Shown here: one piece after another, positions 7,430-38,472 of the stretch
Position numbering within the stretch: the stretch's first letter is position 1
How the letters are laid out: the number at the start of each line of letters is the position of its first letter
Origin: a virus
Strand: one strand, 5' to 3'
Virus record (IMG/VR): IMGVR_UViG_3300020056_000048
Location: 1-45,915 of that record
DNA length: 45,915 bases
Position numbers and translations under genes: made by a program
The notes under the pieces: generated by a model
What the model was told of the DNA's origin: nothing
What the model saw: only the letters and a program-made list of their open reading frames with translations
Database searches by the model: none

Positions 7430-7432
7430 TAC

Positions 7433-9622: not shown

Positions 9623-9631
9623 TTTAATCTC

Positions 9632-12370: not shown

Positions 12371-14196
12371 TAAAGTCTAACCTGTTCTACCTTGACGTTA
12401 ACATCAACATCCCTAATTGAAAGAATAGTTCTATTAATTGGCGTGATGTCTTTTCCTTTTGTTCTTGCGTAAAGATTTAAATAATTTTCTTGAACTATTT
12501 TTTGAACCCTAAAATTCTCTATAATGACAACACCTGTTGTGTAGTTGACGGTACCTGTTGGCCTAACAATTTCATGAAATTCATCATTACCTGATACAAT
12601 ATTAAGGAAACCCAAACCATCATCTTCTATAGTACATTCCTTTCCATCAAAAATAAATGGTGATGAAAAGACTGTTTTAATTTGATTCGAATCGTGATTG
12701 GGTAAAGTTCCTGGTATATCATCTCTTAAAGGGAATCCAAAATTAATAGTAAAGTTTCGCGAAAATTGATCAACTACAAATGATTTAATAGCATAAGTAT
12801 TAGTATCATTACTAATAATAGAAGATTGTGCAGAATCAATCGCACTAACTAAATTACTATATCTAAAAGTTTTTTCAAACCCGTTAATGTTTGTTAAATT
12901 ATAGTTTTGTATTGCTGAGCTAGCTAAAAGTTTAATATCGTCAATATTTAAGCTTGTTTGTGTAATATCATATTTGACTAAACTATCAACTTTAATGTAA
13001 GTATATTGTGGATCAACAAACACTGGATTTATTGCCAAAGCTGATAATGGTTTAATAAAATTATAATATTCTGCTTTTCTTGATGGCGGTAAAGCATCTG
13101 CAGTTTTTAAATCAACAGCAACAAATACTTTTCCAAATTGCGGTGGATCTTCTGCTTCACCTCCATACGCAGCAACATCATTAATTTCTGAAAAGTTTGC
13201 TTTTAACAGAGTTTTATAATCATCTGAAGTAATTACACGTTCTTGTGTTGCAAACGCGCGAGGAGCATTGAATTTAATTGACTCAATAGATTCTGCAATA
13301 GAACCACCTTGAGCTGCTAGCACTTCTTTTGTTTCTGCATCAACTGAAACTGAAACATTAGTTACAACACCAGTGCCAATATCATCGTCAGCTCTAAAAT
13401 TTCTAATTCCATTTGGTAGTTCACCATTACAAGCACGATATTCAATTAAAACTACTGAGTTATCTTTTGGTTTGCGACCAATTACACCATCACCAAAAAG
13501 AATTTCATACGTATCATTTTCTGCAGCCTGTAAAAAGAAAACTAGCGATGTAGAATCTAAACCAAATAACTTGTCTCTTTTTAAATACGTATAAGTATTT
13601 TCACCATTATCTTCAATTACGGTTACTCTAATACTATTAGTATCAACTGTTTTATTTGTAATAATAAATCTTTCGGTTGCATTAGAGTTTGTTATATAAG
13701 AATCGTAATTTAGATCGCCTTCGTATATCTTAATAGCAGAAGCTATATAAGTATTCTGATCGTTATCATTTGCAGGATTTAATGCTAATACGTTATCAGC
13801 AGTTACAAAAGTAAAGTTCTTATTCCCAGTTGTTCCGGTAAACGACGTACCACGAGGAATCACAACAGCACCAGCAGTTGCTTGTGTATCGCGTATTGTG
13901 ATATCTACTGTTGCAGTAGCAGATCTAAATGAACGTGGCACATAGTTTAATTCTTTTGCATGTGACACAATAGAATCTCTCATGATAGCAGAATCTAAAA
14001 ACATTTCATTGCTTAACATATTCATGTAAAAAGCATTAATGTTTGTATTATACGCTAATATATCAAGCAATACGCTGATGTTAGATCCTTCGAAATCGTA
14101 ATCTCTAAAAATATTCTGTGACTTTAAATAAGTCTTAAGATTATTTTTAATACTATCAAAATCGAGAGTTGTGAGGTTAATACTTGACTGGGCCAT
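12370..14196 (-). CDS. 6: Baseplate wedge protein gp6 (baseplate J-like)
   Basis: 608 residues against about 660 in T4. The N-terminal block LTTLDFDSIKNNLKTYLKSQ, FEGSNISVLLDILAYNTN, NMLSNEMFLDSAIMRDSI and AKELNYVPRSFRSA is the hallmark of T4 gp6 and the baseplate-J fold. gp6 forms the inner wedge ring that joins neighbouring wedges and transmits sheath contraction. It starts one base after the gp25 stop, so gp25 and gp6, which contact each other in the wedge, are adjacent and co-expressed, probably from the late promoter at 14656-14663. Confidence 0.95.
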   Translation of the reverse strand: MAQSSINLTTLDFDSIKNNLKTYLKSQNIFRDYDFEGSNISVLLDILAYNTNINAFYMNMLSNEMFLDSAIMRDSIVSHAKELNYVPRSFRSATATVDITIRDTQATAGAVVIPRGTSFTGTTGNKNFTFVTADNVLALNPANDNDQNTYIASAIKIYEGDLNYDSYITNSNATERFIITNKTVDTNSIRVTVIEDNGENTYTYLKRDKLFGLDSTSLVFFLQAAENDTYEILFGDGVIGRKPKDNSVVLIEYRACNGELPNGIRNFRADDDIGTGVVTNVSVSVDAETKEVLAAQGGSIAESIESIKFNAPRAFATQERVITSDDYKTLLKANFSEINDVAAYGGEAEDPPQFGKVFVAVDLKTADALPPSRKAEYYNFIKPLSALAINPVFVDPQYTYIKVDSLVKYDITQTSLNIDDIKLLASSAIQNYNLTNINGFEKTFRYSNLVSAIDSAQSSIISNDTNTYAIKSFVVDQFSRNFTINFGFPLRDDIPGTLPNHDSNQIKTVFSSPFIFDGKECTIEDDGLGFLNIVSGNDEFHEIVRPTGTVNYTTGVVIIENFRVQKIVQENYLNLYARTKGKDITPINRTILSIRDVDVNVKVEQVRL

Positions 14197-14631
14197 TTAT
14201 CTTACTCTATAAAGTACAATATCAACTTCTTCTTCTGTTTGAGAAGTTAATACGTAAAATCTAATGGTAACGTTGACAGTGTTGTCATCGTATTCTGATG
14301 TAGCTTTAACGCTAGTAACATTGACGCGAGGTTCATATAGCTTAATTGTTTCTTCAATATTATCTTCTATTTCTGATAAAATATAATCTTGTAGAGGTTC
14401 AAACAAATAACGTGTGAGATTACTACCAAATGCGGGATTACGTAATCTCTCATATTTATTCGTAAAAATAATATTTCTCAAAGAATGTTTTACTGCTTCT
14501 ACATTTACTTTACGAGTAATCTGAGCAGTGTGAGGATGTGGTAAAAAGGTATGCACAAAATCACTATAAACTTCTTCGGGCCTGCCGGCCTGTAGAAATT
14601 CAAAATCTTTTTTTGCTATCTTTACGCCCAT
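14197..14631 (-). CDS. 25: Baseplate wedge protein gp25 (lysozyme-like fold family)
   Basis: 144 residues (T4: 132). Conserved signatures are NIIFTNKYERLRNPAFGSNL, FEPLQDYILSEIEDNIEET and YEPRVNVTSV, typical of the gp25 family (called lysozyme-like from old fold predictions, with no proven enzyme activity). gp25 sits in the inner wedge and initiates sheath polymerisation together with gp6. A TATAAATA box lies 25 bases upstream of the ATG and an AAGAAGAG stretch can serve as ribosome site. It is the first gene of the gp25-gp6-wedge segment. Confidence 0.95.
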   Translation of the reverse strand: MGVKIAKKDFEFLQAGRPEEVYSDFVHTFLPHPHTAQITRKVNVEAVKHSLRNIIFTNKYERLRNPAFGSNLTRYLFEPLQDYILSEIEDNIEETIKLYEPRVNVTSVKATSEYDDNTVNVTIRFYVLTSQTEEEVDIVLYRVR

Positions 14632-14655
14632 GTTAGACTCTTCTTATTTATTTTT

Positions 14656-14663
14656 TATTTATA
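14656..14663 (-). promoter_or_regulatory. Late promoter box TATAAATA upstream of gp25
   Basis: The minus strand reads TATAAATA, identical to the T4 late -10 element used by gp55. It lies in the 37-base gap between the 109-aa gene and gp25. With T4 spacing, transcription would start near 14650, giving a leader of about 19 bases before the gp25 ATG. Confidence 0.7.
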
Positions 14664-14668
14664 TGATA

Positions 14669-14998
14669 TTAAGTATTACCTGAAGGTGGTACATAATGAC
14701 CACCGTGTGCATCGTTATTGCTGGTGTGTGTATTAAAATCGGTAGTAGTAACATAGCCGTCAATTGTTGATCCAGCTGGAAGAGACACTGCGTTACTAAA
14801 AGTAACTGGGCCGCTAATTGTAATTCCAGAAGCAGTTACAACAATTGAACTATTGCCAACTTCAATTGTAATAGTATTTGTTTGTGGTGGTGGCTGATTA
14901 GCTACTTGTTGCTCTAATGCAGAAGCCGTTACTGTAACTGCTGCTGCTCGTGATTGTATATCTGCAATTCTTGCTTGCACATCAGTTTCAATGCTCAT
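14669..14998 (-). CDS. Small virion-type protein of the baseplate operon, function unknown
   Basis: 109 residues. The N-terminal half is helical, with a heptad-like run up to about residue 38; the rest is beta-type with valine/threonine alternation. It ends in a His-containing tail (DAHGGHYVPPSGNT). I do not recognise the family. It overlaps the 223-residue gene by 4 bases (ATGA) and is followed by the gp25 late promoter. The helix-then-beta layout resembles short trimeric spike or fibre accessory proteins, but that is speculation. Confidence 0.7.
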   Translation of the reverse strand: MSIETDVQARIADIQSRAAAVTVTASALEQQVANQPPPQTNTITIEVGNSSIVVTASGITISGPVTFSNAVSLPAGSTIDGYVTTTDFNTHTSNNDAHGGHYVPPSGNT

Positions 14999-15666
14999 AT
15001 TTTAATACCCGTAAGAGTTAAACGTGTTTCAAATATTCCTTCTGGAACTTCAAAATCAACCGCCATCTTTGAACCAGAAAAATTACCAAACGTATTGTAA
15101 GTAAAATTCATATAATATGTTTCATCTTCAATTAAATATGAATATGAATAAATTTGAGAAGTATTTGAAAATACACCAGTATTATCACCAATTTTAAATT
15201 TAATTGTCGTGTTGCTTGTAATACTGACAGCTTGGGCCCTATCTGTTACATATGCATTTTGTGCAATGCTATTAGATCCAGGTTTAGTCGACATCCAAAA
15301 TGTTATAGGCGTGTCAGCACCATCTGGAACAACTAAAGTTATATTATACGATGAAGCGGTATTTCCAACCGGTAATCCATAACTTGTTATTGTATTTGCT
15401 TCTGCTACTACATTTGCAACTACAAAAGTATTACTCTGATCTGGTCCACTTACATCACCTTTATAATCTACGCTAGCACTATACGGTGTATTACTAAAGT
15501 CACCGCCGGATGGAAGGGCTGCAGCATTAACTGTAAGATTAGTAAGTGCAGGAGCAGTTGCAATGCTCGATTCAATAGCTGACATTGATTGAGCTATAGC
15601 TGCTGTTTGTTTATCTAATTTTTGTAAAGTTGCGAGAACTCTTTGTGGGTCAAATACTTGTTCCAT
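14995..15666 (-). CDS. Virion-type protein of the baseplate operon, function unknown
   Basis: 223 residues. A short N-terminal helix (PQRVLATLQKLDKQTAAIAQ) is followed by a beta-rich domain; there are no Cys or membrane segments. It lies two bases after the preceding gene's stop and overlaps the next gene (ATGA). Its place between gp5 and gp25 suggests a small hub or wedge accessory protein. I do not recognise a family. Confidence 0.7.
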   Translation of the reverse strand: MEQVFDPQRVLATLQKLDKQTAAIAQSMSAIESSIATAPALTNLTVNAAALPSGGDFSNTPYSASVDYKGDVSGPDQSNTFVVANVVAEANTITSYGLPVGNTASSYNITLVVPDGADTPITFWMSTKPGSNSIAQNAYVTDRAQAVSITSNTTIKFKIGDNTGVFSNTSQIYSYSYLIEDETYYMNFTYNTFGNFSGSKMAVDFEVPEGIFETRLTLTGIKI

Positions 15667-15668
15667 AA

Positions 15669-16589
15669 TTATCCACCTCCGCCTGCGCCAGAACCAATTG
15701 GTGTGCCATCGACTCCTGCTAAACCTTTATCTATTCGTGTCTGTAAAGAAAGACTATTGAGTGCAATAGAAGATTTTAATTGATCTTCCCTAGTTCCTAG
15801 TTCTTCAATAGAAGCAGCTGCCGCGGCCGCATCAGTAACAGCATCTGACATAGCATCAGTTGCTGCACCTAAATCATCACCAATTGCATCGATTTCATCA
15901 AGTAAGTCTTGTGCACCTGTAGTTTGAAGTGCGTTGGCAATAATACTATCAACCAAACTTTCTGCTGTTGCAATGAGGTTAGCAGCATTTTGATAAATTG
16001 AATTAATAACATCATCGATAGCATTAAATAGTGTTTGTTCTAAACAAGAAATCAATTGTGCAATAGCACTTGTTACTGCACTAATTAAATTTGCAATTGC
16101 AGATGCTAATTGTGCTAGATCAATAACTAATTGGACAATCAAAGCAATTTGTTGAGCTACCGGGCCACCAACTACTTTTGCCGCCCACGTTAAAATTTTA
16201 AGTGGATCAGATGGTAAAGATAAAAGAGGTGCCCAAGTAGACATAATATTTGCTATTGACTCTGCGTGAGATGCTATCGAATCAGTAATATGTTGAACAT
16301 ATTGATCAACTAATTCCTGCAGCCTTTCACAACTAAATGCACCATTTACTGGAACTTGCTCGGTTTCATATGGAAAATTTTCTAATGCACCGGTATCTTC
16401 ATTTACAGTTGTTGGTGTATTTGGATCATAACTTGGATTCGCAGAAAACGTTTGATTATCAGGACCAATTGGTTTTTCTGGATCAAAGTTATCATTAACT
16501 TTTGCTTGTTCAACATATACTACGCCAGTCATCGCTTCTAATTCAGCAATCCAGGCGTTAATTTGTTCCGTTGCGTTTTGTACACTCAT
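15669..16589 (-). CDS. Helical protein following gp5, function unknown
   Basis: 306 residues. An acidic, proline-containing N-terminal ~100 residues is followed by a long Ala/Ile-rich amphipathic-to-hydrophobic helical region (about 130-270), and the protein ends in GSGAGGGG. The ATG overlaps the gp5 stop by one base (TAATG), so the protein is made together with the spike protein. The helical region could be a membrane-active or coiled-coil structure such as a spike-tip chaperone or an injected protein. No family is recognised, so this is inference. Confidence 0.7.
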   Translation of the reverse strand: MSVQNATEQINAWIAELEAMTGVVYVEQAKVNDNFDPEKPIGPDNQTFSANPSYDPNTPTTVNEDTGALENFPYETEQVPVNGAFSCERLQELVDQYVQHITDSIASHAESIANIMSTWAPLLSLPSDPLKILTWAAKVVGGPVAQQIALIVQLVIDLAQLASAIANLISAVTSAIAQLISCLEQTLFNAIDDVINSIYQNAANLIATAESLVDSIIANALQTTGAQDLLDEIDAIGDDLGAATDAMSDAVTDAAAAAASIEELGTREDQLKSSIALNSLSLQTRIDKGLAGVDGTPIGSGAGGGG

Positions 16590-18454
16590 TATACTATATC
16601 CGTAACAATTCCTGCAGTGACAGTAACTTTCTTACCATCTGGTGTTGTCCAAGATCCAGATGCACCATTTTTAGCACTCAATCTTGCGTTAAGAGTTTTA
16701 TCATTAATAACAGTCATATCAGAATCAACTGTAATACCTGTACCAGATTTTAACCACAAGCCACCTTCAGATTCTAAAAAATTTCCTACTTTAGCTTTGT
16801 TGCTTATTATGTAAGCTTGTGTTGTATGATTACCTTGAACTTCAAAAATTTCATCACCACCAACATGATGATAAAGATTCCCAGCTACATTATTATAATA
16901 GTTACCATAATCTAAAGGTGATAATTTTCTTTCTTGATCTTTTGTTAAACCCACATTTAAATTATAGTTGTTGTTAGTTCTAATATGAGTGTTATTTCTT
17001 ACATCACGATAATATGTTGATTCATCTGTATCAGATAATCCACGTTCTTCATCTTTACTATATCCAACAGACACTGCCATATTATTTTCTGTTGTTTGGA
17101 TTGTATTATTACCTACATCACGATAATAGTTTTTAGTAACTGGAGAATAAGATCTATCAATTTTACGTTCAGTATCTTTATTATACCCGACAGATAAAAG
17201 ATAATTATTTTCACTAACTAAAATACTTGTGTTATATACGTCTCTAAAATAATTCCAAGTATCTACATCTTTTTCTAAACGTCTTTCATCTTTTATTTCA
17301 TAACCAACTTGTACAACTCTATTATTTCCAGCAGTAAGTGTAACATTGTTTGCTACATCTAAATATAAATTGTATTGATCAATTGCACCACCATCGTATT
17401 TTGTAGAGCCATTGTCATTAATACGATTAGGAGGTGGATCCTGATAACCAACTGTCCAGTGATATGTATTGCCAATCTTTACAGTTTGAGTATTTGCAAT
17501 TGATACATTATGATCTCTTTGTAATAACTCATTCTTATCTTTTATAACAGTCTCAAAAAATGAGTCCATTGTTTTACGAGATCTTCGACCTTTCCAATCT
17601 GGTTCTGCAACTCCGCCAGCTGTTGTGTAATTCCAACCAGATGGCCCAGTTTCAGGATACACATTTTTTACTTTGCCTCGGTCAGCGTCAATTCCAGGAT
17701 TTGATGGAGCATTAGAAATTTCTTCATATGTTCCGGACCTATGCCACATATGCATACGTTCGTGGCCGGGAGTATCATCCAACTCAATTGCATGGCCTGA
17801 TTTTGTAGTATAAGTTAAGTTATAAGGATACTCTGTATTATAGGCAGTAGGCATTTCATCTACTGTGCTAATAGCTAAAGGATCGTCTGTTTCATCTCTC
17901 CACAGTTTTGAATATTCGTATGGTTCTTTTGGCAGCGTTTGACCGGGCCCACCTTCTTTTGTTATTGGGTCTTCAAAAAAACCTTTTGCTAATGCAGATA
18001 CATCATGATATTTGTAATCTTTTTCAGGTGGTGTATCCTGAAGCATTTCTTCTATCTTAGTTCCTGGCTCTGGGAAAATAGATTGCTTATGATACGTACC
18101 AAAAATCATTGGTATGTTTTGCTCATAACCATCTAGATAAAAACCAAATGCGTATGTTCCAACTGCAATTCCAGTTGGTGATAAACCTACCGCATCTACC
18201 CAATCCGGTGTTTCAAATTTTTCTAACTCTACAACTTTTTTCCAAGATAACGAAGCAGATTGAATTGCAGATATTGGATAAGCCCATAACAATTCTTCAT
18301 TTAGAAATCCATATTGATCGACTTTTTTACCAAGCTCTCCGGTTTGCTCATGAATAACACGTATTTGAACTCGACCCATTTTTTCTGGATCTTTAATGTC
18401 TATCACACGTGCAATAAACCAACGGAAAGTATCACCTAAATGATAATGCGCCAT
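16589..18454 (-). CDS. 5: Baseplate central spike gp5 without lysozyme domain
   Basis: 621 residues. Residues 1-125 are the gp5 OB-fold (FRWFIARVIDIKDPEKMGRV, later GYEQNIPMIFGTY). Residues 205-245 are the gp5C start (YPYNLTYTTKSGHAIELDDT, MHMWHRSGTYEEI), leading into a beta-helix. The T4 lysozyme domain that normally lies between these parts is absent: only about 80 linker residues are present. Residues 383-523 hold four tandem units with a VGYxKDxERxL...YYRDV pattern (about 40 residues each). gp5 trimers form the membrane-piercing needle on gp27, which is encoded one base upstream. Confidence 0.92.
   Translation of the reverse strand: MAHYHLGDTFRWFIARVIDIKDPEKMGRVQIRVIHEQTGELGKKVDQYGFLNEELLWAYPISAIQSASLSWKKVVELEKFETPDWVDAVGLSPTGIAVGTYAFGFYLDGYEQNIPMIFGTYHKQSIFPEPGTKIEEMLQDTPPEKDYKYHDVSALAKGFFEDPITKEGGPGQTLPKEPYEYSKLWRDETDDPLAISTVDEMPTAYNTEYPYNLTYTTKSGHAIELDDTPGHERMHMWHRSGTYEEISNAPSNPGIDADRGKVKNVYPETGPSGWNYTTAGGVAEPDWKGRRSRKTMDSFFETVIKDKNELLQRDHNVSIANTQTVKIGNTYHWTVGYQDPPPNRINDNGSTKYDGGAIDQYNLYLDVANNVTLTAGNNRVVQVGYEIKDERRLEKDVDTWNYFRDVYNTSILVSENNYLLSVGYNKDTERKIDRSYSPVTKNYYRDVGNNTIQTTENNMAVSVGYSKDEERGLSDTDESTYYRDVRNNTHIRTNNNYNLNVGLTKDQERKLSPLDYGNYYNNVAGNLYHHVGGDEIFEVQGNHTTQAYIISNKAKVGNFLESEGGLWLKSGTGITVDSDMTVINDKTLNARLSAKNGASGSWTTPDGKKVTVTAGIVTDIV
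16886..17308 (-). repeat. Four tandem ~40-codon repeats in the gp5 needle
   Basis: Repeat units of gp5 start at about residues 383, 422, 463 and 501. Each has VG(Y/L)xxKDxER followed some 12 residues later by Y(Y/F)(R/N)(D/N)V. The DNA copies differ in third positions, so this is an old protein-level repeat, consistent with extra turns of the trimeric beta-helix. Confidence 0.8.
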
Positions 18455-18455
18455 A

Positions 18456-19718
18456 TTATATTGCCTTCTTCATATTTGGTTTACGTATATCTAAAATCAT
18501 AAAATGTTCAAACTCAGCATTATCTCTTTTATCTAATCTGTGTCTTAAAGTACGTACTACATAATTTTCTGAATATAATTCCTGCTGCTTAGGTTCAACA
18601 GTGACACCTGAAATATCAGGTACTTTTGCTTTTACCATATCACCAACACGCAAAGCAGTATCTCCATAAACACGTATACGCATACCGTATTGATACATTC
18701 TATTTTCAAAACCACGCTTCCAATGTATATTAGTATTATGTTCCATTTCAGGTCTTAAGCTATCTTTAACTGCCATTTTTGTAACACCAGGCTTTGAAGT
18801 TACAAATGAACTATACTTCGAACTATTCATATCTTCATTTGCGTCAGTAAACTTATAATTAGTGTGCTGGCCAGTATTATTATATTCATTCATTGTATAA
18901 TAAGTACCACGGAAAATATCAAACTCACGATACTGATTTCTCATAGTACCTGCCATTACTTTGTCTACTGAAGCACCTTGAGTAATCGTTTCGTATGCTA
19001 AAATATTTCTAACGTTGATTGGCGATCCATATTCAGGTTGCCTATTAGTTTCATCATATGTAAATACGAAATCTTCAGCTTTACCTTTTCTTTCTTCGAT
19101 TACTGCTTCAAAAGTTTTAAAGTAATATTTTTCCCAATCTTCCCAAAACAAAAATATTGATGATTTATAATTAGGAGATACTGCCCTCTCTTTAATAAGA
19201 TCTACAGCTTGGAAAGGACGAATATTGTTTACAACATAATCGAACTTACCTTTCGTAGGATCAACAACAACTTCTTTTGAAACTACCAATTCATCTTTTA
19301 AGATAGCGTTAACTGCTGCATCGTAGTTCATATCCTTGTAACGCTTTGAATAAACATTCCAAGAATTTTTAAGAAAATCTTTTGTTACACAGCGCAACTT
19401 ATACTTTTTAATATTAGACATGTCATTTGTTTTCATGCCTTGAATACTTTCAACAAATAACTTATAAGTACACGAAGGTCGCGACGGTGTTTGAATTGTA
19501 ATTTCTACTTCTTCCTCGCCTGCAATTGGAAGATTATTAATCAATTCAATACTATCTTCTAAGAAAAAATCTGCAGTTAAAGAAAAATTATCTAATGATT
19601 CGTAAATATCAATACCTTGTACCTGAGGATACATGTTATGAACTCGGCTAGCACCAAATGGTGAGATCCATATTTCTTTGTTAGGTATAATTACATCAGA
19701 TACGTCTAAAGCGGTCAT
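18456..19718 (-). CDS. 27: Baseplate hub protein gp27
   Basis: 420 residues (T4 gp27: about 391). Its place directly before gp5 and its signatures (ISPFGASRVHNMYPQVQGID, then DFFLEDSIELINNLPIAGEE, and later ILAYETITQGASVDKVMAGT) match the gp27 hub family. gp27 forms the trimeric torus that carries the gp5 needle and contacts the tail tube start. The gene begins 8 bases after the gp53 stop. Identification is by motif memory and gene order; both agree. Confidence 0.9.
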   Translation of the reverse strand: MTALDVSDVIIPNKEIWISPFGASRVHNMYPQVQGIDIYESLDNFSLTADFFLEDSIELINNLPIAGEEEVEITIQTPSRPSCTYKLFVESIQGMKTNDMSNIKKYKLRCVTKDFLKNSWNVYSKRYKDMNYDAAVNAILKDELVVSKEVVVDPTKGKFDYVVNNIRPFQAVDLIKERAVSPNYKSSIFLFWEDWEKYYFKTFEAVIEERKGKAEDFVFTYDETNRQPEYGSPINVRNILAYETITQGASVDKVMAGTMRNQYREFDIFRGTYYTMNEYNNTGQHTNYKFTDANEDMNSSKYSSFVTSKPGVTKMAVKDSLRPEMEHNTNIHWKRGFENRMYQYGMRIRVYGDTALRVGDMVKAKVPDISGVTVEPKQQELYSENYVVRTLRHRLDKRDNAEFEHFMILDIRKPNMKKAI

Positions 19719-19726
19719 TCATTTGC

Positions 19727-20596
19727 TCACTGTAATAAATCACTTAATTGTTTATTTACCTTTTCAGTATATGCTGGTTCTAAAAGATAAATTTCACGCT
19801 TCAATTCATTTTGCTCAAACTCATAATCATAAGCATATAATGGGCTATAATAAATTTGCTCTCCAAATGGAATTACATGTGTAATAAGCTTCCATGTTGT
19901 ATGATCTAAAGTAGCTGTAACACCTGAAGTTTCGCCTGTTACTGTTATGTTTGTATTGCTTTCAAAAGTACCACGAATATCTCTAATTGTAATTGTGCTT
20001 GTATTTGCAAAAGATATTGTAGCTTTGTTTTCACTATTACTATCATCAGTAATCGTTTCATCTTTAGTAAACGTGGTTGATGGTGTAGTGGAAAAGCTTA
20101 TAGTTTCAACTTTATTTGTTGAAGCAAACCAATCTTCTTCTGCTCTTTGATAAGAAATTACGCCTATTGCATTATCTATTGGTACCCAATATTTTTTTCT
20201 CTCGCCAGGTAAACTATTATAACCATCTGGGGAAAGAAGACTTTCGTCACCTCTCCAATTATTTCGATAGCTTACAATTTTTTTCTTGGCTTCAATTGTG
20301 CTGCCATATTTGTTTTTAATATAGCGCTCAAACTTTTGACTATCTAAATGATAATTAAAATACGGATCAACCGAATCATTTGCGTAATGGATTACCCAAT
20401 CTAAATCTACGTCATTGTAATAATCATGTGCGACATGATCTACTAAATCTTGATCACCAAGAGAATAAGGATTAAACGCAGTAAAAAAGTTTTTTACTTT
20501 ACTATTAAAATCAGCGCGCTTCATAATATTGACAGCGGTTGTGCCATTGTAATCCATAAATGGAAACTTTTTAAAGTATTTGTTTTGCTCTGCCAT
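19727..20596 (-). CDS. 53: Baseplate wedge protein gp53, enlarged
   Basis: 289 residues, clearly longer than T4 gp53 (about 196). The family block is at the start: YFKKFPFMDYNG, VKNFFTAFNPYSLGDQDLVD, DWVIHYANDSVDPYFNYHLD. The C-terminal 60 residues (EQIYYSPLYAYDYEFEQNEL) return to the family pattern. Residues ~168-235 are a Thr/Ser-rich beta insertion with a VTGETSGVTATL motif, which accounts for the extra length. gp53 joins neighbouring wedges in the inner baseplate ring. It is in line with gp48 upstream and gp27 downstream. Confidence 0.92.
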   Translation of the reverse strand: MAEQNKYFKKFPFMDYNGTTAVNIMKRADFNSKVKNFFTAFNPYSLGDQDLVDHVAHDYYNDVDLDWVIHYANDSVDPYFNYHLDSQKFERYIKNKYGSTIEAKKKIVSYRNNWRGDESLLSPDGYNSLPGERKKYWVPIDNAIGVISYQRAEEDWFASTNKVETISFSTTPSTTFTKDETITDDSNSENKATISFANTSTITIRDIRGTFESNTNITVTGETSGVTATLDHTTWKLITHVIPFGEQIYYSPLYAYDYEFEQNELKREIYLLEPAYTEKVNKQLSDLLQ

Positions 20597-21814
20597 TTAT
20601 GCGTCCTCAGCCGTATACATTTCTACTTCCTGGAATTCCATACTTAAAAGAACTGATACTGGATTACCATCAATAAAGAATGCAGATTGGCCTTCACCTG
20701 AAAAATTAATCATAAGAGATCTTACAGCCGCGGTTTTAAAATTACCAAGATCAGAACCATTTACAACAGGACGAAGTAAATATGGATATATTAATTTAGA
20801 TCCGCCAGGTGGAGCCGATGGGAGAATCTTTTGCTTTAAGAATGTAATAATATTTTTAATGTTAGTAGCATCTGCGCGCGTCCGAGGAACTAATTTCCAG
20901 TTCCAAGTAAATTGGCGAAGCTCTAATCCTTTAAAAAACACTGATGGGTGTGGGTTAGGAATAGCACCTACAATTTGAGATGCTAATCCACCTACATCTG
21001 TATCGGCCAAATTACTATATGCAACTCGAGATAAAACATTTTGCACAGCATTTTTTGCTTCAGCTTCATTTAATTCATTTAATGCTACTTTAGCAATTTC
21101 AGCAGCTTTCATTATATTTCCTTGTTCGGCCGCTGAAATCATATCTTTTCCTGCACTGCTCTGTACAACATCACCAAGGATACCTGTATCACGCTGATCA
21201 TATTTTACAGAGTGATTAAATGCAAAGTTATCTGGCAATGGTAAAAACACTTTTTCACTTCCAGACACATTACCTTTGGAAAATGGATCAGATCTACTAT
21301 ATTTTTTAAAGTGTAATTCTAAAAACGCAGGTGTTTTATTAGATACAAGATCTGATGGAAAAGAAAGATCAGCAAATGCATCAAGATCCCCACCCAAAAT
21401 TTCTTGCCTGTTTTTACTCATCCTATTAGCAACGGTAGTTGCTTTTGTAGGAATTCTATTTGTAGTAATTGATAAATCAGTAGGAGTACGTGATGCACGT
21501 TGTGTTAATTGTTGCTTTCCTGCAAGACTATCATTTAAAAAGTTTGTAACTAAACCTGCTGTATTTTTTGAGGTCACACCTGAGCTTTCAAGTTTAGCAG
21601 CAAAAGATGAAGCTACTTCTAGTTTTGACCTTTGTGTATTGTTAAGATTACCAATAGAGCCGGTAACACTGCCTGTAATTTGACCTGCCTGGGCTGCAGG
21701 ACTTGCACCAGTAGAACGGATAGCACCAATTTGGATTTTATCGAGATATGTAAGATTATTACTTAGTTGTGCTGTATCTGCACCTACTGATGATATACTA
21801 TTGTTTGCTGCCAT
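20597..21814 (-). CDS. 48: Baseplate tail-tube cap gp48
   Basis: 405 residues (T4: about 364). The C-terminal domain FLPLPDNFAFNHSVKYDQRD, RQFTWNWKLVPRTRADATNI, KQKILPSAPPG and SVLLSMEFQEVEMYT is the conserved gp48/gp54-type tube-cap fold. gp48 sits on top of the hub and starts tail-tube growth. The ATG at 21814 has an AGGAA ribosome site 6 bases upstream. It is the first gene of the minus-strand baseplate operon; a TATAAATA box at 21909-21916, inside the divergent gp4 gene, could drive it. Confidence 0.88.
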   Translation of the reverse strand: MAANNSISSVGADTAQLSNNLTYLDKIQIGAIRSTGASPAAQAGQITGSVTGSIGNLNNTQRSKLEVASSFAAKLESSGVTSKNTAGLVTNFLNDSLAGKQQLTQRASRTPTDLSITTNRIPTKATTVANRMSKNRQEILGGDLDAFADLSFPSDLVSNKTPAFLELHFKKYSRSDPFSKGNVSGSEKVFLPLPDNFAFNHSVKYDQRDTGILGDVVQSSAGKDMISAAEQGNIMKAAEIAKVALNELNEAEAKNAVQNVLSRVAYSNLADTDVGGLASQIVGAIPNPHPSVFFKGLELRQFTWNWKLVPRTRADATNIKNIITFLKQKILPSAPPGGSKLIYPYLLRPVVNGSDLGNFKTAAVRSLMINFSGEGQSAFFIDGNPVSVLLSMEFQEVEMYTAEDA

Positions 21815-21824
21815 GGAAATTTCC

Positions 21825-21832
21825 TATAAATA
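21825..21832 (+). promoter_or_regulatory. Late promoter box TATAAATA immediately upstream of gp4
   Basis: An exact TATAAATA on the plus strand ends 5 bases before the gp4 ATG, in the 23-base divergent gap between gp48 and gp4. With T4 late-promoter geometry, the transcript would begin at or next to the A of the ATG, and there is no Shine-Dalgarno sequence. Confidence 0.65.
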
Positions 21833-21837
21833 AATAT

Positions 21838-22284
21838 ATGGCTAAAACTTATAAAGGCGTCTTTAAACCGCAGAATCCTTCTAAGTATCGTGGCGATCCT
21901 ACTAATATTATTTATAGGAGTCGCTGGGAACTTCTCTTTATGCGCTATCTTGATTCACACCAAGATGTTAAACAATGGGCCAGCGAGGAATTAATTATAC
22001 CTTATAGATCACCATTGGATGGAAAAGTTCATCGTTACTTTCCAGACTTCTGGGTAAAGAAAGTGAATAGGCAGGGAAAAACTGATGTTGCAGTTGTAGA
22101 GATTAAACCCTTTAACCAAACAAAAGAGCCTATTCCTCAAAAAAAGCTTACCAAGAACTATTTATACGAAGTTAAGACTTGGTCGATAAATAAAAGTAAA
22201 TGGGTTGCTGCAGAAAGTTTTTGCAAAGATAGAGGATGGGAGTTTATGATTATCACTGAAAAAGAGCTCGGATTAAAATTCTAA
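21838..22284 (+). CDS. 4: Head completion protein gp4
   Basis: 148 residues, the usual gp4 length (T4: about 150). The family signature YKGVFKPQNPSKYRGDPTNI, YRSRWELLFMRYL and later DFWVKK, VVEIKP gives the nuclease-like arrangement seen in gp4 and related head-completion proteins (E in RSRWE, D in FPDFW, ExK in VEIKP). gp4 acts after DNA packaging so that tails can join the head. I chose the ATG at 21838 because homology begins there; in-frame upstream codons lie inside the divergent gp48 gene. No ribosome site is visible. It overlaps the next gene by one base (TAATG). Confidence 0.92.
   Translation: MAKTYKGVFKPQNPSKYRGDPTNIIYRSRWELLFMRYLDSHQDVKQWASEELIIPYRSPLDGKVHRYFPDFWVKKVNRQGKTDVAVVEIKPFNQTKEPIPQKKLTKNYLYEVKTWSINKSKWVAAESFCKDRGWEFMIITEKELGLKF
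21909..21916 (-). promoter_or_regulatory. Candidate late promoter for gp48 inside gp4
   Basis: The minus strand reads TATAAATA about 95 bases upstream of the gp48 ATG, within gp4 codons for Ile-Tyr-Arg. No other late box was seen ahead of the minus-strand baseplate operon. The codons could also generate the sequence by chance. Confidence 0.45.
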
Positions 22285-22880
22285 TGGCAACATATATCTT
22301 TCAAAGAATTGTAGACGAAGGAAAGGCTGAAGGTGTTCAGTCTGGTTCAGAAGAAGCCCGCGATTGGTATAGAGATCGAGCTGCTTCTGTAAGATCGGTC
22401 GACACGCGTAGAGAGTTAAAGAACCGAGCTCGTACATACAATAAAATGGTTCAACTTGACGTTGGACGTATGTATATGTTTTTCTATGATCCAAAGCACA
22501 AAGAAAAGCTTCCATACTATGATATGTTCCCATTAATTTTTGTTTTAGAAAAATATACTGATGGTTTTCTTGGTATGAACTTACATTATCTTCCACCTAT
22601 TTTTAGAGCACGTTTAATGGATAGGTTATATAGTATTGAGCGCCAAGATAATGTACGTGAATCAAAAAAACTAAGATTAAGTTATAGTTTTCTTAACACT
22701 GCAGCGAAGTATAAATACTTTAGGCCCACCGTAAAAAAATATCTTAATACTCAAGTTAGATCACGTTTTCTTTGGATACCTTATGATGAGTGGGATATTG
22801 CACTAATGTTACCAACTCAGAGATTTAGAAAATCAAAACAAAGTGCAGTATGGCGCGATTCCAAAAAGAAAATACAGTAA
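22284..22880 (+). CDS. Conserved T4-like protein next to gp4 (possible gp2-like, uncertain)
   Basis: 198 residues, basic. The core (VGRMYMFFYDPKHKEKLPYY, FVLEKYTDGFLGMNLHYLPP, FRARLMDRLYS, KYKYFRPTVKKYL) is a pattern I have seen conserved across T4-like phages, but I cannot attach a firm name. In T4, gene 2 (DNA-end protector) neighbours gene 4, which makes gp2 one candidate; another unassigned head or hub protein is equally possible. It is translationally coupled to gp4 by a one-base overlap and belongs to the plus-strand virion operon. Confidence 0.75.
   Translation: MATYIFQRIVDEGKAEGVQSGSEEARDWYRDRAASVRSVDTRRELKNRARTYNKMVQLDVGRMYMFFYDPKHKEKLPYYDMFPLIFVLEKYTDGFLGMNLHYLPPIFRARLMDRLYSIERQDNVRESKKLRLSYSFLNTAAKYKYFRPTVKKYLNTQVRSRFLWIPYDEWDIALMLPTQRFRKSKQSAVWRDSKKKIQ
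22710..22717 (+). promoter_or_regulatory. Weak candidate late box inside the gp4-adjacent gene
   Basis: An exact TATAAATA on the plus strand encodes Tyr-Lys-Tyr codons in the 198-aa protein and lies about 173 bases before the tail-tube-like gene. It could be an internal late promoter for the tube/hub/tape-measure genes, or chance. Confidence 0.25.
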
Positions 22881-22889
22881 GGTAATCAC

Positions 22890-23408
22890 ATGGCATTTGA
22901 TATTGCAGCATTTAAAGCATTCACTGGAGATCATCTTCCAGCTACGCACTATGAGGTGTTAATAAGACCTCCTACAGGTGGAGGTAATGAAATTAATTTG
23001 CGTACAGAAACAATTAGTGTTCCGGGCGTAGCATATCTTTCTGTGGATAATTATGCACCGTATGGATCAGGAAAGCTTTATAATTTACCATATCGTTATA
23101 ATCCACAAGAAATTCAAATGACTCATAATATCGATAAAGATGGAAACATTATTGATATTTTTAGACGATGGGCAAATTTGACAGTTGATCTCGATGGGAA
23201 CGCGAAATACGGTGCATATTACTACGAGGTCTACGCACAACAGGATGGTGATATTAAAGTTTACAATCGTCAAGAACTAGTCAAAACAATTACGCTCGAA
23301 AAACCATATCCTATTAATATAGAACCAATCCAAATGGGTTGGGGACAAAATGATGAAATAGCTAAATTGAGCGTTTCATATAGATTTGCATCATTTAAAG
23401 TAAGCTAA
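22890..23408 (+). CDS. Tail-tube-like (gp19 family) protein in the hub operon
   Basis: 172 residues, close to T4 gp19 (163). The family pattern is HYEVLIRPPTGGGNEINLRT, ISVPGVAYLSVDNYAPYGSG, then NIIDIFRRWANL and ITLEKPYPINIEPIQMGW. The tube fold is shared by gp19 (tube) and by tube-initiator proteins such as gp54. Because this gene lies beside gp26 and the tape measure and close to gp48, rather than beside the sheath gene, it may be the initiator ring rather than the main tube. The main gp19 could be elsewhere in the genome. Confidence 0.8.
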   Translation: MAFDIAAFKAFTGDHLPATHYEVLIRPPTGGGNEINLRTETISVPGVAYLSVDNYAPYGSGKLYNLPYRYNPQEIQMTHNIDKDGNIIDIFRRWANLTVDLDGNAKYGAYYYEVYAQQDGDIKVYNRQELVKTITLEKPYPINIEPIQMGWGQNDEIAKLSVSYRFASFKVS

Positions 23409-23422
23409 TTTGGAGATATATT

Positions 23423-24133
23423 ATGGCTTTACCTAAAATTGCAGCACCTACATTTGAGTGCTTGCTACCATCAACAGGTGATAAATTATATTACCGACCT
23501 TTTCTAGTTAAAGAAGAAAAAGTTTTGTTGATGGCTAAAGAATCAAATGACAAAGCTGACACAGTTAACGCTATTAAAAGTATTATCAATAGTTGTGTAC
23601 TCAATGAAGAGTTTGATGTAAATGATATTACAATCTTTGATATGGAATACATTTTTATTAAACTACGAGCAGCATCTGTTGGGAACGTCGTACAGTTTCA
23701 AGTAGAAGATAGTACTGATGGAATTACATATGATTTAGAACTTAACTTAGATGAAGTAGAAGTTAAGTTTCCAGAAAATCATGATAGAAAAATTATGGTC
23801 AGTGAAGATATTGGAATGACTTTAAAATATCCAACACCTGAAATTTCTACTGTATTGGCTAAGTTAAAGACTGTTGCTGATATTACTTATGAAACAATTA
23901 ATCATTGTATTGATGTAGTATTTGATGATGAAGATACTTATGCTTGGAAAACAACAAGCAAAAAAGAACGGGATGAATTTTTAGATAATCTTCCAATTGA
24001 AACTTATAATAAGATTCAAGCGTTCTTTGAAACATCACCAAAAATTGAGCACGTTATAGTTTATACAAACAGTAAAGAAGAAGAAAAAAGAGTTGTTTTT
24101 AGAGATCTTGACGATTTTTTTCAATTGGGCTGA
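23423..24133 (+). CDS. 26: Baseplate hub/tail assembly chaperone gp26
   Basis: 236 residues in frame 0 (T4 gp26: about 208). The pattern FECLLPSTGDKLYYRPFLVK, EEKVLLMAKES, INSCVLNEEFDVNDITIFD, YIFIKLRAASVG matches the T4 gp26 family, which corresponds functionally to lambda G-type tail assembly chaperones. A GGAGA ribosome site lies 8 bases upstream. The frame ends DDFFQLG at the TGA at 24131-24133, immediately after a run of seven T. Ribosomes slipping back one base there would continue for 62 codons (next entry). It lies just before the tape measure, as chaperones with frameshifts do in siphophages. Confidence 0.88.
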   Translation: MALPKIAAPTFECLLPSTGDKLYYRPFLVKEEKVLLMAKESNDKADTVNAIKSIINSCVLNEEFDVNDITIFDMEYIFIKLRAASVGNVVQFQVEDSTDGITYDLELNLDEVEVKFPENHDRKIMVSEDIGMTLKYPTPEISTVLAKLKTVADITYETINHCIDVVFDDEDTYAWKTTSKKERDEFLDNLPIETYNKIQAFFETSPKIEHVIVYTNSKEEEKRVVFRDLDDFFQLG

Positions 24134-24183
24134 GTTACCTGGATCTGTTCCATCACTACAAGATTAACTTCGACATAACTCAG
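24115..24183 (+). promoter_or_regulatory. Programmed -1 ribosomal frameshift signal
   Basis: The slippery heptamer is T-TTT-TTT at 24115-24121, with the last six bases as in-frame Phe codons. Then comes an 8-base spacer (24122-24129) and a perfect 8-bp stem: CTGAGTTA at 24130-24137 pairs with TAACTCAG at 24176-24183 across a 38-base loop. The frame-0 stop lies inside the first arm. Slippery site, spacer and stem match the canonical layout for -1 frameshifting. Confidence 0.75.
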
Positions 24184-24309
24184 TATCACCAATTTTCTTT
24201 ACACGAAGTGGAACAAATGATACCTTTCGAAAGAGAGCTGTACATAGAAATGCTTGCTGCAAAAGTAAAAGGTGATAATGATAGCCTAGGAAAAATGGTA
24301 GACTTTTAA
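24121..24309 (+). CDS. -1 frame extension of gp26 (tail chaperone C-terminal part, gp51 slot)
   Basis: 62 codons in the -1 frame end at TAA 24307-24309. The frame is closed upstream by a TGA at 24109-24111, so only 24112-24120 are open before it, and the first ATG is more than half-way in. It therefore needs frameshifting or a non-canonical start. Its core (HHYKINFDITQYHQFSLHEV, then QMIPFERELYIEML) has the MIPFERExY pattern of the short proteins that follow gp26 in many T4-like phages, the gp51-like slot. The fused product would be 295 residues: 233 from gp26 plus 62. Confidence 0.75.
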   Translation, partial: SIGLSYLDLFHHYKINFDITQYHQFSLHEVEQMIPFERELYIEMLAAKVKGDNDSLGKMVDF

Positions 24310-24320
24310 AGAGAACAATA

Positions 24321-26816
24321 ATGTTAAAACTCATCAGAGCACTAGCTCAATATGTTTCTAGAAGTAAAAACCTAAGTAAAGCGCGCGGAGTGCGTGCTGC
24401 TGGTGGAGCTAATCTATTAAAGTCTGGTTTAAAAACTGCAGGCGGATTATCTTTAGGTAACGCAGTACTAAAAGGATTAGGGTCTTTAGGTCCCGACCAA
24501 AAAGAAAGCGTCGATTCTTCACTTCCAACAATGGAGCAATATACCGCGGCCGCGGCCGCATCAATGGAAGCAAACACACCAGTACGACATACTGACGTTC
24601 CAGCTTTAATTGAAAACATGGAAGAAGTCAGAGTCCCAGCTGTTATACCTGAGTTAGGTCCAAATGACGGACAGTATGCTCCTCACTTAAATCTTATCAT
24701 TGAAAGAATTGCACGATTAGAAACAAGAGTTAATACACAATCAGCTTTATTAAATTCTCTACGTAGTGTAATTGACTCTGCAGTCGATCAAAACGAAGCT
24801 CTCGATAGAAAAGATGAGCGACGACGCGACGAAGCAGAAATTGAAGGTAAAAAGACAAAACCAAAAATTGGTTCTGGCATTGGTGGTAAAGCTGCAGCGC
24901 TCGGTGGTGGAATATTAGCTGCAATAGAAAAATATGTTGGTAATTTAGTTGGTTTGGCCGCTGGCGCAGGATTATTAGGTTTACAGCTATGGGAACCAGA
25001 TCCGAGTGAGGAAGAACCACTTGGAATTATGGATGCACTCGACGAAGCTGAAAATTTTATTGCTCAAGCAACAGTAGGTTTATCTACGCTTGGTGTGTTT
25101 AAAGCAGGTGAGCAACTAGGCAGAGATGCAAAAGCAAAACAACTAAAAGCAGAAAGAGCAGCACGGCCAGTAAATCAACGACCAAAAGTTCCGGGACAAG
25201 TTGGTACTACAGCAGATGGAAAGCCTGTAGTAAAATCTAAAGCAGGAAACTTAACTGTTGCTGGTGCTGATGGTAAAGCTACTACACAAATAGTTAAAGC
25301 AGAACAAGTTAAACCATTATCACCTACTGGCGCTAGCGCTCCAACTGGTACCGGTGCTGCAGCAGGCAAAATGGGCAAAGGCAGTAAAGAAGGTTCAGCA
25401 TTTATGAAAATGCTACAAAAGTTTCAAGGCATTGTTAAATCAGTACAATCTGGATCAAAGAAAATTATTGAAGGTGCTAAAACATACTTAATGAAATTTG
25501 GTTCTACAGGATCTGCGCTTATTCAAAAAATTGGTAGATTTGTTGTTAAATGGTTCCTTATTATTGAGGCAATTACATTTATGATTAGATCTACTGAACT
25601 CTATATGTTTGGTAGTATTACTAAAGATGAATGGCATAAAGGAAACAAGGAACAAATTAATACTATTTGTAAATTATTTGGGCCTATGTGGTTATTATGT
25701 TTACTCGGTACTTTATCTCCAATTCCGGGTGGTGCGATCATGGGATTTGTAATTGGTTTGTTTTATGGTGATGAAATCTATGATGCAATTGCATTTGATC
25801 AAGTAGTTGCAGCATTATATGATTGTCTTGTAACAATGTCATTCCAACCATTAATAGATATGTTTAAGAGATTTTATGATTGGTTTATGAATGAGTTACC
25901 CAAGATTCTGGGTGAGAAAGTAAAAGCTGCTGGTCAATATATGCAAGGCATTGATGTTATTGCAGAACAAGAAGATATTCAAGAAGAATATGGAACAACC
26001 TCTAACCTTGGCAAAATTGCGCTTGAAGCGACTGACACATTTTTGGGTATGGGTGTTGATGAAAATGCATTACTATATGTAGCAGATAACATTAATTCAC
26101 GCGAACAGCTCAGAGAAGTTGATAATAAAATTATGGAAGAGCACGGAATTGGTCTTATTGATTTAGCAAAAGATAAATTAAATGAAGAAGAATTCCAACA
26201 ATTTGTTAATGTATTAGATAAGAGTATTGCTGAAGGCGATGCTGGAATGGAAGAAAAAGCTGAGGCAGTTAAAAACTATGTCGATGATCCTTATGTAGCA
26301 AAAGAAGGTGATTACCTTACGGCTGAAGCAATGAAAGAAATTGGTGCAAGTGATACGTCAGCTGAAGAAGTTGGTAAAGCTTTATCTCAAGTTGCTAAAG
26401 TAGACATTACTAAAGAAGTAGCATCCAGTGAAGAAATGGCTGGATTAGTAGAAGATAAAGTTTCGCCAATATCAAATGAATTAGAAACAATTGCCGAAGA
26501 AGTAGAAAATAAAGTTAAAGTCGAAGCTGGCAGTTTAGTGTTAGCAGCCGGCGCAGCAGCCGAAAGAGCATTGAGTACAGTTAACATTGAAACCGTATTG
26601 CCTAGTGGTAAAGTTCAACAAATGGCTATGCAAGTTCCAACAGATATTGTTAAAGAAGTAAGAGGACAAGACTCAACTATAGTACCGATTATTATGGGAG
26701 GTGCTAGTAAAAGAATTAGCCGGGCGGCGGGTAGTTCTCCTGCATCACAAGTAGAAAATTCTAATCCCTCATACAATACTCGCGATAACTTCCTTACAGT
26801 AAGTAATTACACATAA
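24321..26816 (+). CDS. Tape measure / tail-length determinator (gp29 position)
   Basis: 831 residues. It has a basic N-terminus and a coiled-coil region at about 115-175 (LNLIIERIARLETRVNTQSA). A Gly/Ala-rich hydrophobic stretch spans ~180-225 and further hydrophobic segments lie near 407-425 and 455-485 (WLLCLLG, GAIMGFVIGLFYG); the C-terminal third is acidic. A long, largely helical protein with membrane-inserting segments placed directly after the tail chaperone fits a tape measure. T4 gp29 is shorter (590), implying a longer tail if length scales. The assignment rests on position and architecture, not a clear family motif. The ribosome site is AAGAG, 8 bases before the ATG. Confidence 0.75.
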   Translation: MLKLIRALAQYVSRSKNLSKARGVRAAGGANLLKSGLKTAGGLSLGNAVLKGLGSLGPDQKESVDSSLPTMEQYTAAAAASMEANTPVRHTDVPALIENMEEVRVPAVIPELGPNDGQYAPHLNLIIERIARLETRVNTQSALLNSLRSVIDSAVDQNEALDRKDERRRDEAEIEGKKTKPKIGSGIGGKAAALGGGILAAIEKYVGNLVGLAAGAGLLGLQLWEPDPSEEEPLGIMDALDEAENFIAQATVGLSTLGVFKAGEQLGRDAKAKQLKAERAARPVNQRPKVPGQVGTTADGKPVVKSKAGNLTVAGADGKATTQIVKAEQVKPLSPTGASAPTGTGAAAGKMGKGSKEGSAFMKMLQKFQGIVKSVQSGSKKIIEGAKTYLMKFGSTGSALIQKIGRFVVKWFLIIEAITFMIRSTELYMFGSITKDEWHKGNKEQINTICKLFGPMWLLCLLGTLSPIPGGAIMGFVIGLFYGDEIYDAIAFDQVVAALYDCLVTMSFQPLIDMFKRFYDWFMNELPKILGEKVKAAGQYMQGIDVIAEQEDIQEEYGTTSNLGKIALEATDTFLGMGVDENALLYVADNINSREQLREVDNKIMEEHGIGLIDLAKDKLNEEEFQQFVNVLDKSIAEGDAGMEEKAEAVKNYVDDPYVAKEGDYLTAEAMKEIGASDTSAEEVGKALSQVAKVDITKEVASSEEMAGLVEDKVSPISNELETIAEEVENKVKVEAGSLVLAAGAAAERALSTVNIETVLPSGKVQQMAMQVPTDIVKEVRGQDSTIVPIIMGGASKRISRAAGSSPASQVENSNPSYNTRDNFLTVSNYT

Positions 26817-31472: not shown

Positions 31473-32147
31473 TTATAAGAGGCCTCTATGATATAACTCA
31501 AAGAACTTTTTGGTCATAGGTACATAATTCTGACAATCCTCAATAAAGACAATAGGATCGTCTTCATGTACTGCCATTAGGATTACAATCTGTTCTACTT
31601 CAAAACCATAATGTTCTTTTGCCATTTCGGAATAAGCAGCACACTGCATAAAATAGCTGGTGATATCTTTCTTATGCTTACGGCGCTTAGATGTTTTAAA
31701 ATCGAGTAATGTATTCTTACCATTATACTTACATAGTAAGTCTGCAGTACCTGCAGTACGCAATTCATTAGAATACATTTGTAATTCAATACCGTATACT
31801 TCATCGACATTGTCATCGAGGTATGGTTTGATTTTGAGGAATCGACTGACAGGAATAGGCATGTCTTCACGCCAGGTAGGATCATTGAGCATGTATTTTT
31901 CTGCAACATTGTGTACTGCTGTTCCAGCTGATGAAGCCTGACGAGCAATTTTATTTGCTTCAGCTTCACCTACACGCTTACGCCATTCATGTAGTTTCCT
32001 TTGTCCGAGTTTGCCAAGGACTGTAGTGACCGATGGATACTTATCACCAGAGTCAGTCACATACAGTCGTTGACCCTCCTCGTTAATTCGCTTTAATTTT
32101 CTGGGTTCGAACAGTTTATGCACAAAGCCCGAGTTGTTCTCTTGCAA
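31473..32147 (-). CDS. PD-(D/E)XK nuclease (RecB/Cas4-like exonuclease)
   Basis: 224 residues from a TTG start at 32147, chosen because AAGGAG stands 7 bases upstream inside phoH. The catalytic order is complete: H79 (GTAVHN), E121 (GIELQ), D136 (AGTADLL), D149-x-K151 (LLDFKTSK), and the Q168-x3-Y172 helix (MQCAAY). This is the RecB-type core without the Fe-S cysteines of Cas4. It probably degrades host DNA or trims ends in recombination. It overlaps phoH by 32 bases. Confidence 0.88.
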   Translation of the reverse strand: MQENNSGFVHKLFEPRKLKRINEEGQRLYVTDSGDKYPSVTTVLGKLGQRKLHEWRKRVGEAEANKIARQASSAGTAVHNVAEKYMLNDPTWREDMPIPVSRFLKIKPYLDDNVDEVYGIELQMYSNELRTAGTADLLCKYNGKNTLLDFKTSKRRKHKKDITSYFMQCAAYSEMAKEHYGFEVEQIVILMAVHEDDPIVFIEDCQNYVPMTKKFFELYHRGLL

Positions 32148-32856
32148 TGATATACTCCTTCACCAACAAACTGCGGACAATGTCATTTTCGTTGAATTCA
32201 ACGTGTTCAAAGCCTGATAGTGTATCAATAATTTTCATAAAATTAAGTAGACCGTTTCTCTCCTGTTGTTTGGTCAGGTCACTTTGCCTAAAGTCTCCAC
32301 AGAATACAACTCTACAGTTTTCTCCTATTCTTGTTATGATTGAGTCTAATTCGTGGAAATTCATATTATTTACTTCATCTATTATAACAATAGTATTGTC
32401 TAATGTCAACCCTCTGACAAAAGACGTACACATAAAGTTGACGAGCTCTTTGTGTTTTAAAATGTCATATGCGTCACCGCGGCCAAATAGTTCATTACAA
32501 ATTGCCTTGTATGGTTCTTCATATACTCCAATCTTTTCATCTTCTTTGCCGGGCAAGAACCCAATATCACGTGTAGGTACTACGCTCCTTACGATAGTAA
32601 TGTTGTGATAGATTGAACTTGGATCCTCGAATAATTCTCTAAGCGCGAGATAGAGGGAAATGAATGTTTTTCCTGTGCCGGCCATGCCGTGGAGAAGAAG
32701 ATGATCGCCGTGGTCATAGGCGTCAAATGTTAATTGCTGTGCAAAGGTTTTTGGTTCTACATCAAATAGTCTCATTCCTTTCTGTGGTACATGAGTGCGC
32801 TCATCGAGTACACCGTTTTTACGAAGAGCTCTTCGCTGTCGCTTTGAAAGTGCCAT
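32116..32856 (-). CDS. phoH: PhoH-like ATPase
   Basis: 246 residues. Walker A is GMAGTGKT (57-64), Walker B is TIVIIDE (155-161), and the sensor-type segment CRVVFCGDFRQSDL follows. The PVPTRD-like SVVPTRDIGFLPGKEDEKI stretch is typical of the PhoH family. PhoH proteins are common in marine phages; an RNA helicase or RNA-related ATPase role is suspected, not proven. The N-terminal 25 residues are basic. An AAGGT ribosome site precedes the ATG; the adjacent nuclease is coupled. Confidence 0.93.
   Translation of the reverse strand: MALSKRQRRALRKNGVLDERTHVPQKGMRLFDVEPKTFAQQLTFDAYDHGDHLLLHGMAGTGKTFISLYLALRELFEDPSSIYHNITIVRSVVPTRDIGFLPGKEDEKIGVYEEPYKAICNELFGRGDAYDILKHKELVNFMCTSFVRGLTLDNTIVIIDEVNNMNFHELDSIITRIGENCRVVFCGDFRQSDLTKQQERNGLLNFMKIIDTLSGFEHVEFNENDIVRSLLVKEYIIAREQLGLCA
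32381..32409 (-). promoter_or_regulatory. Perfect-consensus sigma-70 promoter inside phoH
   Basis: Minus strand TTGACA (32409-32404), exactly 17 bases, TATAAT (32386-32381). The bases encode the conserved Walker B region, so they may be incidental. If active, it would transcribe the nuclease gene separately, up to the terminator at 31373-31452. Confidence 0.45.
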
Positions 32857-37268: not shown

Positions 37269-37419
37269 ATTCTTCCAAATCTAATAATTCAATACTGCAC
37301 ACTGGACAATAACTAATTTCAACATCATCTAATTCATAGTTAGCATCGCGAATAATAACATCCATCTTTACTTCGCACGACTGACACTTAATAGTTTGTT
37401 TGACAATGTTTTTCGACAT
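37243..37419 (-). CDS. Small zinc-ribbon protein (58 aa)
   Basis: 58 residues with C12-Q-S-C15 and C38-P-V-C41, a classic zinc ribbon, followed by an acidic C-terminus (LLDLEEYDEDWEMG). The ATG overlaps the nrdB stop (TAATG) and the frame runs 26 bases into the dCMP deaminase gene. The pairs CxxC-x22-CPVC are of the kind seen in small phage transcription or redox proteins; its role is unknown. Confidence 0.8.
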   Translation of the reverse strand: MSKNIVKQTIKCQSCEVKMDVIIRDANYELDDVEISYCPVCSIELLDLEEYDEDWEMG

Positions 37420-38462: not shown

Positions 38463-38472
38463 TAAATCCTCT

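Follow-up and report, generated by a model that had tools for sequence, protein, structure and literature searches.

A candidate −1 programmed frameshift linking gp26 to a gp51-type extension in the hub chaperone gene of a T4-like phage

The tail assembly chaperones of phage lambda, gpG and gpGT (TAC-N and TAC-NC), are a short protein and a −1 extended form with an N-terminus in common; the shift site precedes the tape measure gene, and the slippery heptamer at which the extended form arises is G GGA AAG. For T4, gp26 and gp51 are both listed as hub assembly chaperones (PMC3004832). Sullivan 2010 reported that cyanophage gp51 has ~20% of the length of the T4 protein, with the first ~200 aa absent, and gp51 seemed to be missing from Aeh1 (PMC3037559). 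Poly-T −1 signals in the TAC-N genes of T4-like phages are credited to Vladimirov, Gautam and Davidson 2022 (Virology 566:9-15) in one citing paper (PMC12846349), and a second cites the same work for T4-like phages in which a short gene is accompanied by a longer fusion gene (PMC10885494). Judging by these citations, −1 frameshifts in T4-like tail chaperone genes have apparently already been published; the initial annotation of the present locus had been uncertain whether such a fusion was known in T4-like phages.

The locus lies in a 45,915-nt window (positions 1 to 45,915 of IMG/VR virus record IMGVR_UViG_3300020056_000048), and its features are collected in Table 1. The frame 0 product matches the Pfam family PF12322 (T4_baseplate) at 1.3e-54 and, with 185.6 bits against a curated cut-off of 24.5, belongs to the T4 gp26 family; it also matches phrog_150 of PHROGs at 2e-62. 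Checked base by base, the 3′ end of the gene reads GAT TTT TTT CAA TTG GGC TGA, and the coordinates first assigned to the heptamer, spacer, stem and −1 frame all proved correct. The −1 frame is closed upstream by a TGA at 24109-24111 and runs from 24121 to a TAA at 24307-24309. Its translation matches phrog_634, the gp51 family, at 7.4e-16 over profile positions 60-109 of 121, and a fusion across the two frames would measure 233 + 62 = 295 aa. No second gp51 is present within the 45.9-kb window record, which is a fragment of a phage genome that may carry a separate gp51 elsewhere, and each of 662 phage records holds one gp26-like place.

Table 1 Coordinates of the gp26 locus and its proposed frameshift elements, numbered from the first base of the window
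Feature	Positions	Strand	Description
gp26, tail/baseplate-hub assembly chaperone (short form)	23423..24133	+	Frame 0, 236 aa; PF12322, phrog_150
Slippery heptamer T TTT TTT	24115..24121	+	In X XXY YYZ phase; T TTT TTN in 152/152 relatives
Spacer	24122..24129	+	8 nt; no gaps in an alignment of 29 relatives from the clade
Stem 5′ arm CTGAGTTA	24130..24137	+	Perfect complement of 24176-24183; covariation; low folding energy
Stem 3′ arm TAACTCAG	24176..24183	+	Perfect 8-bp pairing with 24130-24137
−1 frame extension, gp51-type C-terminal domain	24121..24309	+	62 codons and stop; phrog_634
Predicted gp26-gp51 fusion (long form)	23423..24309	+	295 aa; −1 shift at 24115-24121
Next gene	24321..26816	+	831 aa; putative tape measure (position only)

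We propose that this gene is expressed through −1 programmed frameshifting of the lambda G/GT type, yielding a gp26 of 236 aa and a 295-aa fusion of gp26 with gp51, and we give this reading a probability of roughly 0.93. The same pair of products had been put forward from the window alone, and comparison with relatives now supports it through the slip site, its conservation, the stem and the homology to gp51. The gp26 locus would accordingly be a tail-assembly-chaperone gene, at which the majority of ribosomes would terminate at the gp26 stop to give the short form, while for some a pause at the downstream stem would be followed by a backward slip of one base on T TTT TTT and by further reading in the −1 frame, giving the fusion; the short and long forms would correspond to T4 gp26 and T4 gp51, respectively. 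We infer the occurrence of the shift and its rate, and likewise an action of both forms on tape measure and hub in the course of assembly. Given the gp26/gp51 homology and the analogy to lambda G/GT, the predicted role of the short and long forms would be to coat the tape measure and hub, or to fold them, at tail initiation.

Because runs of seven T are common in a window of 36% GC, the case for a functional slip site rests on comparison. Relatives were retrieved by gp26 protein queries only, with the heptamer playing no part in the search, named phages were added, and removal of identical loci left 152 non-identical relatives. In all 152, T TTT TTN is kept in phase at the C-terminal end of gp26, as T7 in 46, as six T followed by C in 105 and as TTTTTTA in one, and in every relative with a complete extension (148/148) the −1 frame encodes a gp51-like extension from the slip site. 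The residue before the Phe-Phe pair may be D, S, N, A or G, and in every case the third base of its codon is T. At other places in these genes, 34-80% of the codons for these residues have T in that position, and TTT serves as the first Phe codon in 75%; a control Phe-Phe pair elsewhere in the gp26 gene is slippery in 1 of 110. Calculated from the codon preferences of each gene across 87 divergent representatives, the probability of the heptamer arising by chance is ~10^-25, a value that assumes an independence among representatives which does not fully hold. Within 50 codons downstream, a stop is found in the −1 frame of none of the 87 representatives and in frame 0 and +1 of all 87, and variation peaks at the third positions of the −1 frame, a pattern that fits coding in that frame. 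Homology of the extension begins at the slip codon and is invariably in the −1 frame.

The same two-frame arrangement extends to Cronobacter S13, Vibrio phi-ST2 (Schizotequatrovirus), Desulfovibrio phage 7757, Sinorhizobium phiM12, Ochrobactrum OC and Pelagibacter Mosig. Aeromonas phage P19 also has the frameshift form and belongs to the genus Ceceduovirus, to which Aeh1 is close. Two candidate exceptions to heptamer conservation were rejected. At L124 an upstream T run had been misread as the site, the actual site being T TTT TTC, and Stenotrophomonas phage IME-SM1 (NC_054952.1; 280-aa gp26) carries one T fewer than BUCT608 of the same species, the missing base being probably a homopolymer sequencing error.

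Comparison with T4 bears out the assignment of the extension as gp51-type that had been made at the outset from its residue pattern. Residues 1-201 of T4 gp51 are themselves a PF12322 domain (3.9e-52), and HHalign places the fusion profile and a T4-type gp51 profile, built from separate sequence sets, in an end-to-end alignment of 243 columns (probability 99.5, E 1.1e-22), such that the fusion follows T4 gp51 co-linearly over its full length. T4 gp26 matches just the gp26 part of the fusion and terminates at the slip position, and its gene ends in GAG TTC TTT GAG TTA CTA TAA, in which the heptamer is gone. In a tree of gp26 domains, T4-type gp26 and T4-type gp51 fall into two strongly supported groups, separate from the one-gene phages; the tree is unrooted and its branches are long, and it therefore does not date the duplication. 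On these sequence relationships, T4 draws its short and long forms from two paralogous genes, and the one-gene phages would draw both from one.

The extension could instead be a free small gp51 that has its own start and is translated by re-initiation after the gp26 stop. Many public records, cyanophage genomes among them, do annotate it as a separate ORF, and an overlapping stop-start (TAATG or TGATG) occurs alongside the heptamer in 4 of 147 relatives; BUCT608, PhiW-14 and phi-ST2 carry both elements in this way. We nevertheless consider this reading very unlikely. The −1 frame of the window has no ATG, GTG or TTG before codon 30, in keeping with the earlier claim that it lacks a usable start, and the earliest candidates, a GTG at codon 30 (24208) and an ATG at codon 33 (24217), lie past the extension's conserved N-terminal half. 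In 76 of 147 loci no ATG, GTG or TTG appears in the first 12 codons of the extension, and SD-like sequences are near-absent, accompanying an extension start in only 1 of 147. The conserved stretch, moreover, begins at the slip codon, the gp26 domain is part of the T4 gp51 chain itself, and re-initiation would leave the conserved in-phase heptamer unexplained.

Stop-start overlap without the heptamer is found further away, in Vibrio phage K474 (L179:2215-2230) and Salmonella phage SKML-39 (L185:2293-2305; Ackermannviridae), where the extension is kept as an ORF that overlaps the gp26 stop by one base. Matches of such small ORFs to phrog_634 are weak (SKML-39, 4.4e-4; PhiW-14, 1.1e-4). The arrangement in K474 and SKML-39 suggests stop-start coupling in place of frameshifting, and since both carry the stop-start without the heptamer, frameshifting is not universal in this gene family. 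The initial annotation had named relatives that keep the extension without the heptamer, or whose extension has its own start codon and ribosome site, as evidence that would count against a frameshift; K474 and SKML-39, both distant relatives, are of the first kind. All 152 loci of the comparison keep the heptamer.

Downstream RNA structure also points to −1 frameshifting. In a −1 frameshift cassette a structure is placed 5-9 nt beyond the slip site, and here an 8-nt spacer leads to a stem that covaries within the window's clade, closes a loop of 38 nt and holds the frame 0 TGA (24131-24133) inside its 5′ arm. Folding energies were compared with those of dinucleotide shuffles in sliding windows. 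For the 75 nt directly after the heptamer, the window's clade has a mean z of −3.3, with 86% of sequences below −1.65, and for the 45 nt directly after it the cyanophage-type group has a z of −2.1; other gp26 positions range from about +0.3 to −0.7, and no signal is left when the folding window begins at least 15 nt downstream. Within the window's clade, 90.8% of cells are paired for the stem extended by one outer pair, as against 21-34% for slid versions, and both sides have changed in five of these nine pairs. The 5′ arm doubles as coding sequence (LSH/LSY), and its conservation is therefore partly protein-driven; the compensatory changes are not. Conservation across related loci, which had been set as the first check on the original proposal, is found for the heptamer, its phase, the −1 extension and a stem downstream, and in the window's clade that stem has compensatory changes. 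A single stem common to all groups was considered and rejected, given that cyanophage-type sequences pair in 54% of cells and RNAalifold returned no common structure. The cyanophage-type group has short hairpins of its own, which start at about the same place as the stem of the window's clade.

The position of this structure bears on a further explanation, slippage of RNA polymerase on the T run, by which some mRNAs would lose or gain a base and encode the fusion without any ribosomal frameshifting. Seven T are available in 46 of the 152 relatives, and selection on run length alone would likewise fix a T before TTT. In 105 of the 152, however, the run is just six T followed by C, which is short for slippage, and the conserved structure lies ~8 nt downstream, where it is untranscribed while the polymerase is on the run but can act on the ribosome; we regard polymerase slippage as less probable still than re-initiation. 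Least credible of all is the reading of gp26 and its extension as one ORF broken by decay or sequencing error, for although homopolymers are error-prone and IME-SM1 differs from BUCT608 in just this way, the two-frame arrangement recurs across the 152 non-identical loci and among named isolates from several phage families, comparative data by which this reading is refuted.

The gene that follows was originally called the tape measure and placed 12 bases on. An ORF does begin there, 11 nt past the −1 frame stop, but its identity did not find support from profiles: the 831-aa product matches nothing among the Pfam or PHROGs profiles and is presumed to be the tape measure by position only. In phiM12, a gene annotated with 'similarity to phage tape measure proteins' stands one small ORF past gp51. 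Inside the 831-aa ORF, an Ala-rich, GC-rich GCGGCCGCGGCCGC run lies at about 24543-24560 in a genome of 36% GC. The ORF closes a plus-strand operon (21769-26816) of head-closure, end-protector, tail-tube-like, gp26 and 831-aa genes, and baseplate genes occupy the minus strand (2375-21814) up to the divergent switch. The window also carries, in this order, a PhoH-like gene (32116-32856) and both subunits of class I ribonucleotide reductase (37419-40755), as in marine T4-like phages; the window record holds no tRNA genes, and a plasmid search gave no match. An AlphaFold2 model of gp26 (pLDDT 91), compared with 350,542 PDB chains, ranks the HK97 tail assembly chaperone 2ob9 at positions 1-2 with a non-significant E of 0.47-0.58 and a TM by target of 0.38-0.40. 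A search of PDB sequences with the gp26 profile returned nothing relevant.

If the fusion is made, the very small ORFs annotated as 'gp51' in the genomes of cyanophages and marine T4-like phages would be the C-terminal part of a gp26-gp51 fusion, and cyanophage gp51 would be ~200 aa short because the remainder is encoded by the gp26 part; the seeming lack of gp51 in Aeh1 would be accounted for in the same way. The annotated 'gp51' starts in cyanophage, Sinorhizobium and Pelagibacter phages (L001, L003, L008, L009 and L010) are arbitrary internal codons, and at these loci homology extends upstream of the annotated start to the slip site. Since homology continues past the annotated starts in this way, many gp51 entries in public records are probably pieces from the C-terminal end of a fusion.

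Set beside the described systems, the locus resembles lambda gpG/gpGT in its short protein and −1 extended form with a common N-terminus, as indicated by comparative sequence, and in having its slip site at the short ORF's 3′ end, with a long gene next. It differs in its protein family, PF12322, in its heptamer, T TTT TTT/C, and in the covarying stem of 8-9 bp with a 38-nt loop that the window's clade has. The T4-like chaperone genes of Vladimirov 2022, as represented in the citing papers, share the poly-T −1 signals and the pairing of a short gene with a longer fusion. The TAC locus of Pseudomonas phage Adele and the Vandenendeviridae likewise has a conserved poly-T −1 frameshift and an extension once annotated as a separate hypothetical gene (PMC12846349), but its motif is GTTTTT, the phage family is another, and the passages that describe it mention no downstream structure. 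The covarying stem and the stop-start variants may be new. T4 gp26 and gp51 both carry PF12322, gp26 as the short form and gp51 as the long form with the same C-terminal extension, yet they are separate genes on opposite strands, and gene 26 ends without the slippery heptamer. We hold it an even chance that these cases together represent one chaperone gene with two products reached by at least three strategies in T4-like phages, the covarying long-loop stem of the window's clade, which is uncultivated, being a previously undescribed stimulator. If so, frameshifting would have had its stimulatory RNA replaced, with a 38-nt-loop stem in the window's clade and short hairpins in the cyanophages, and the other strategies would be stop-start coupling in K474 and the Ackermannviridae and duplication into T4 genes 26 and 51.
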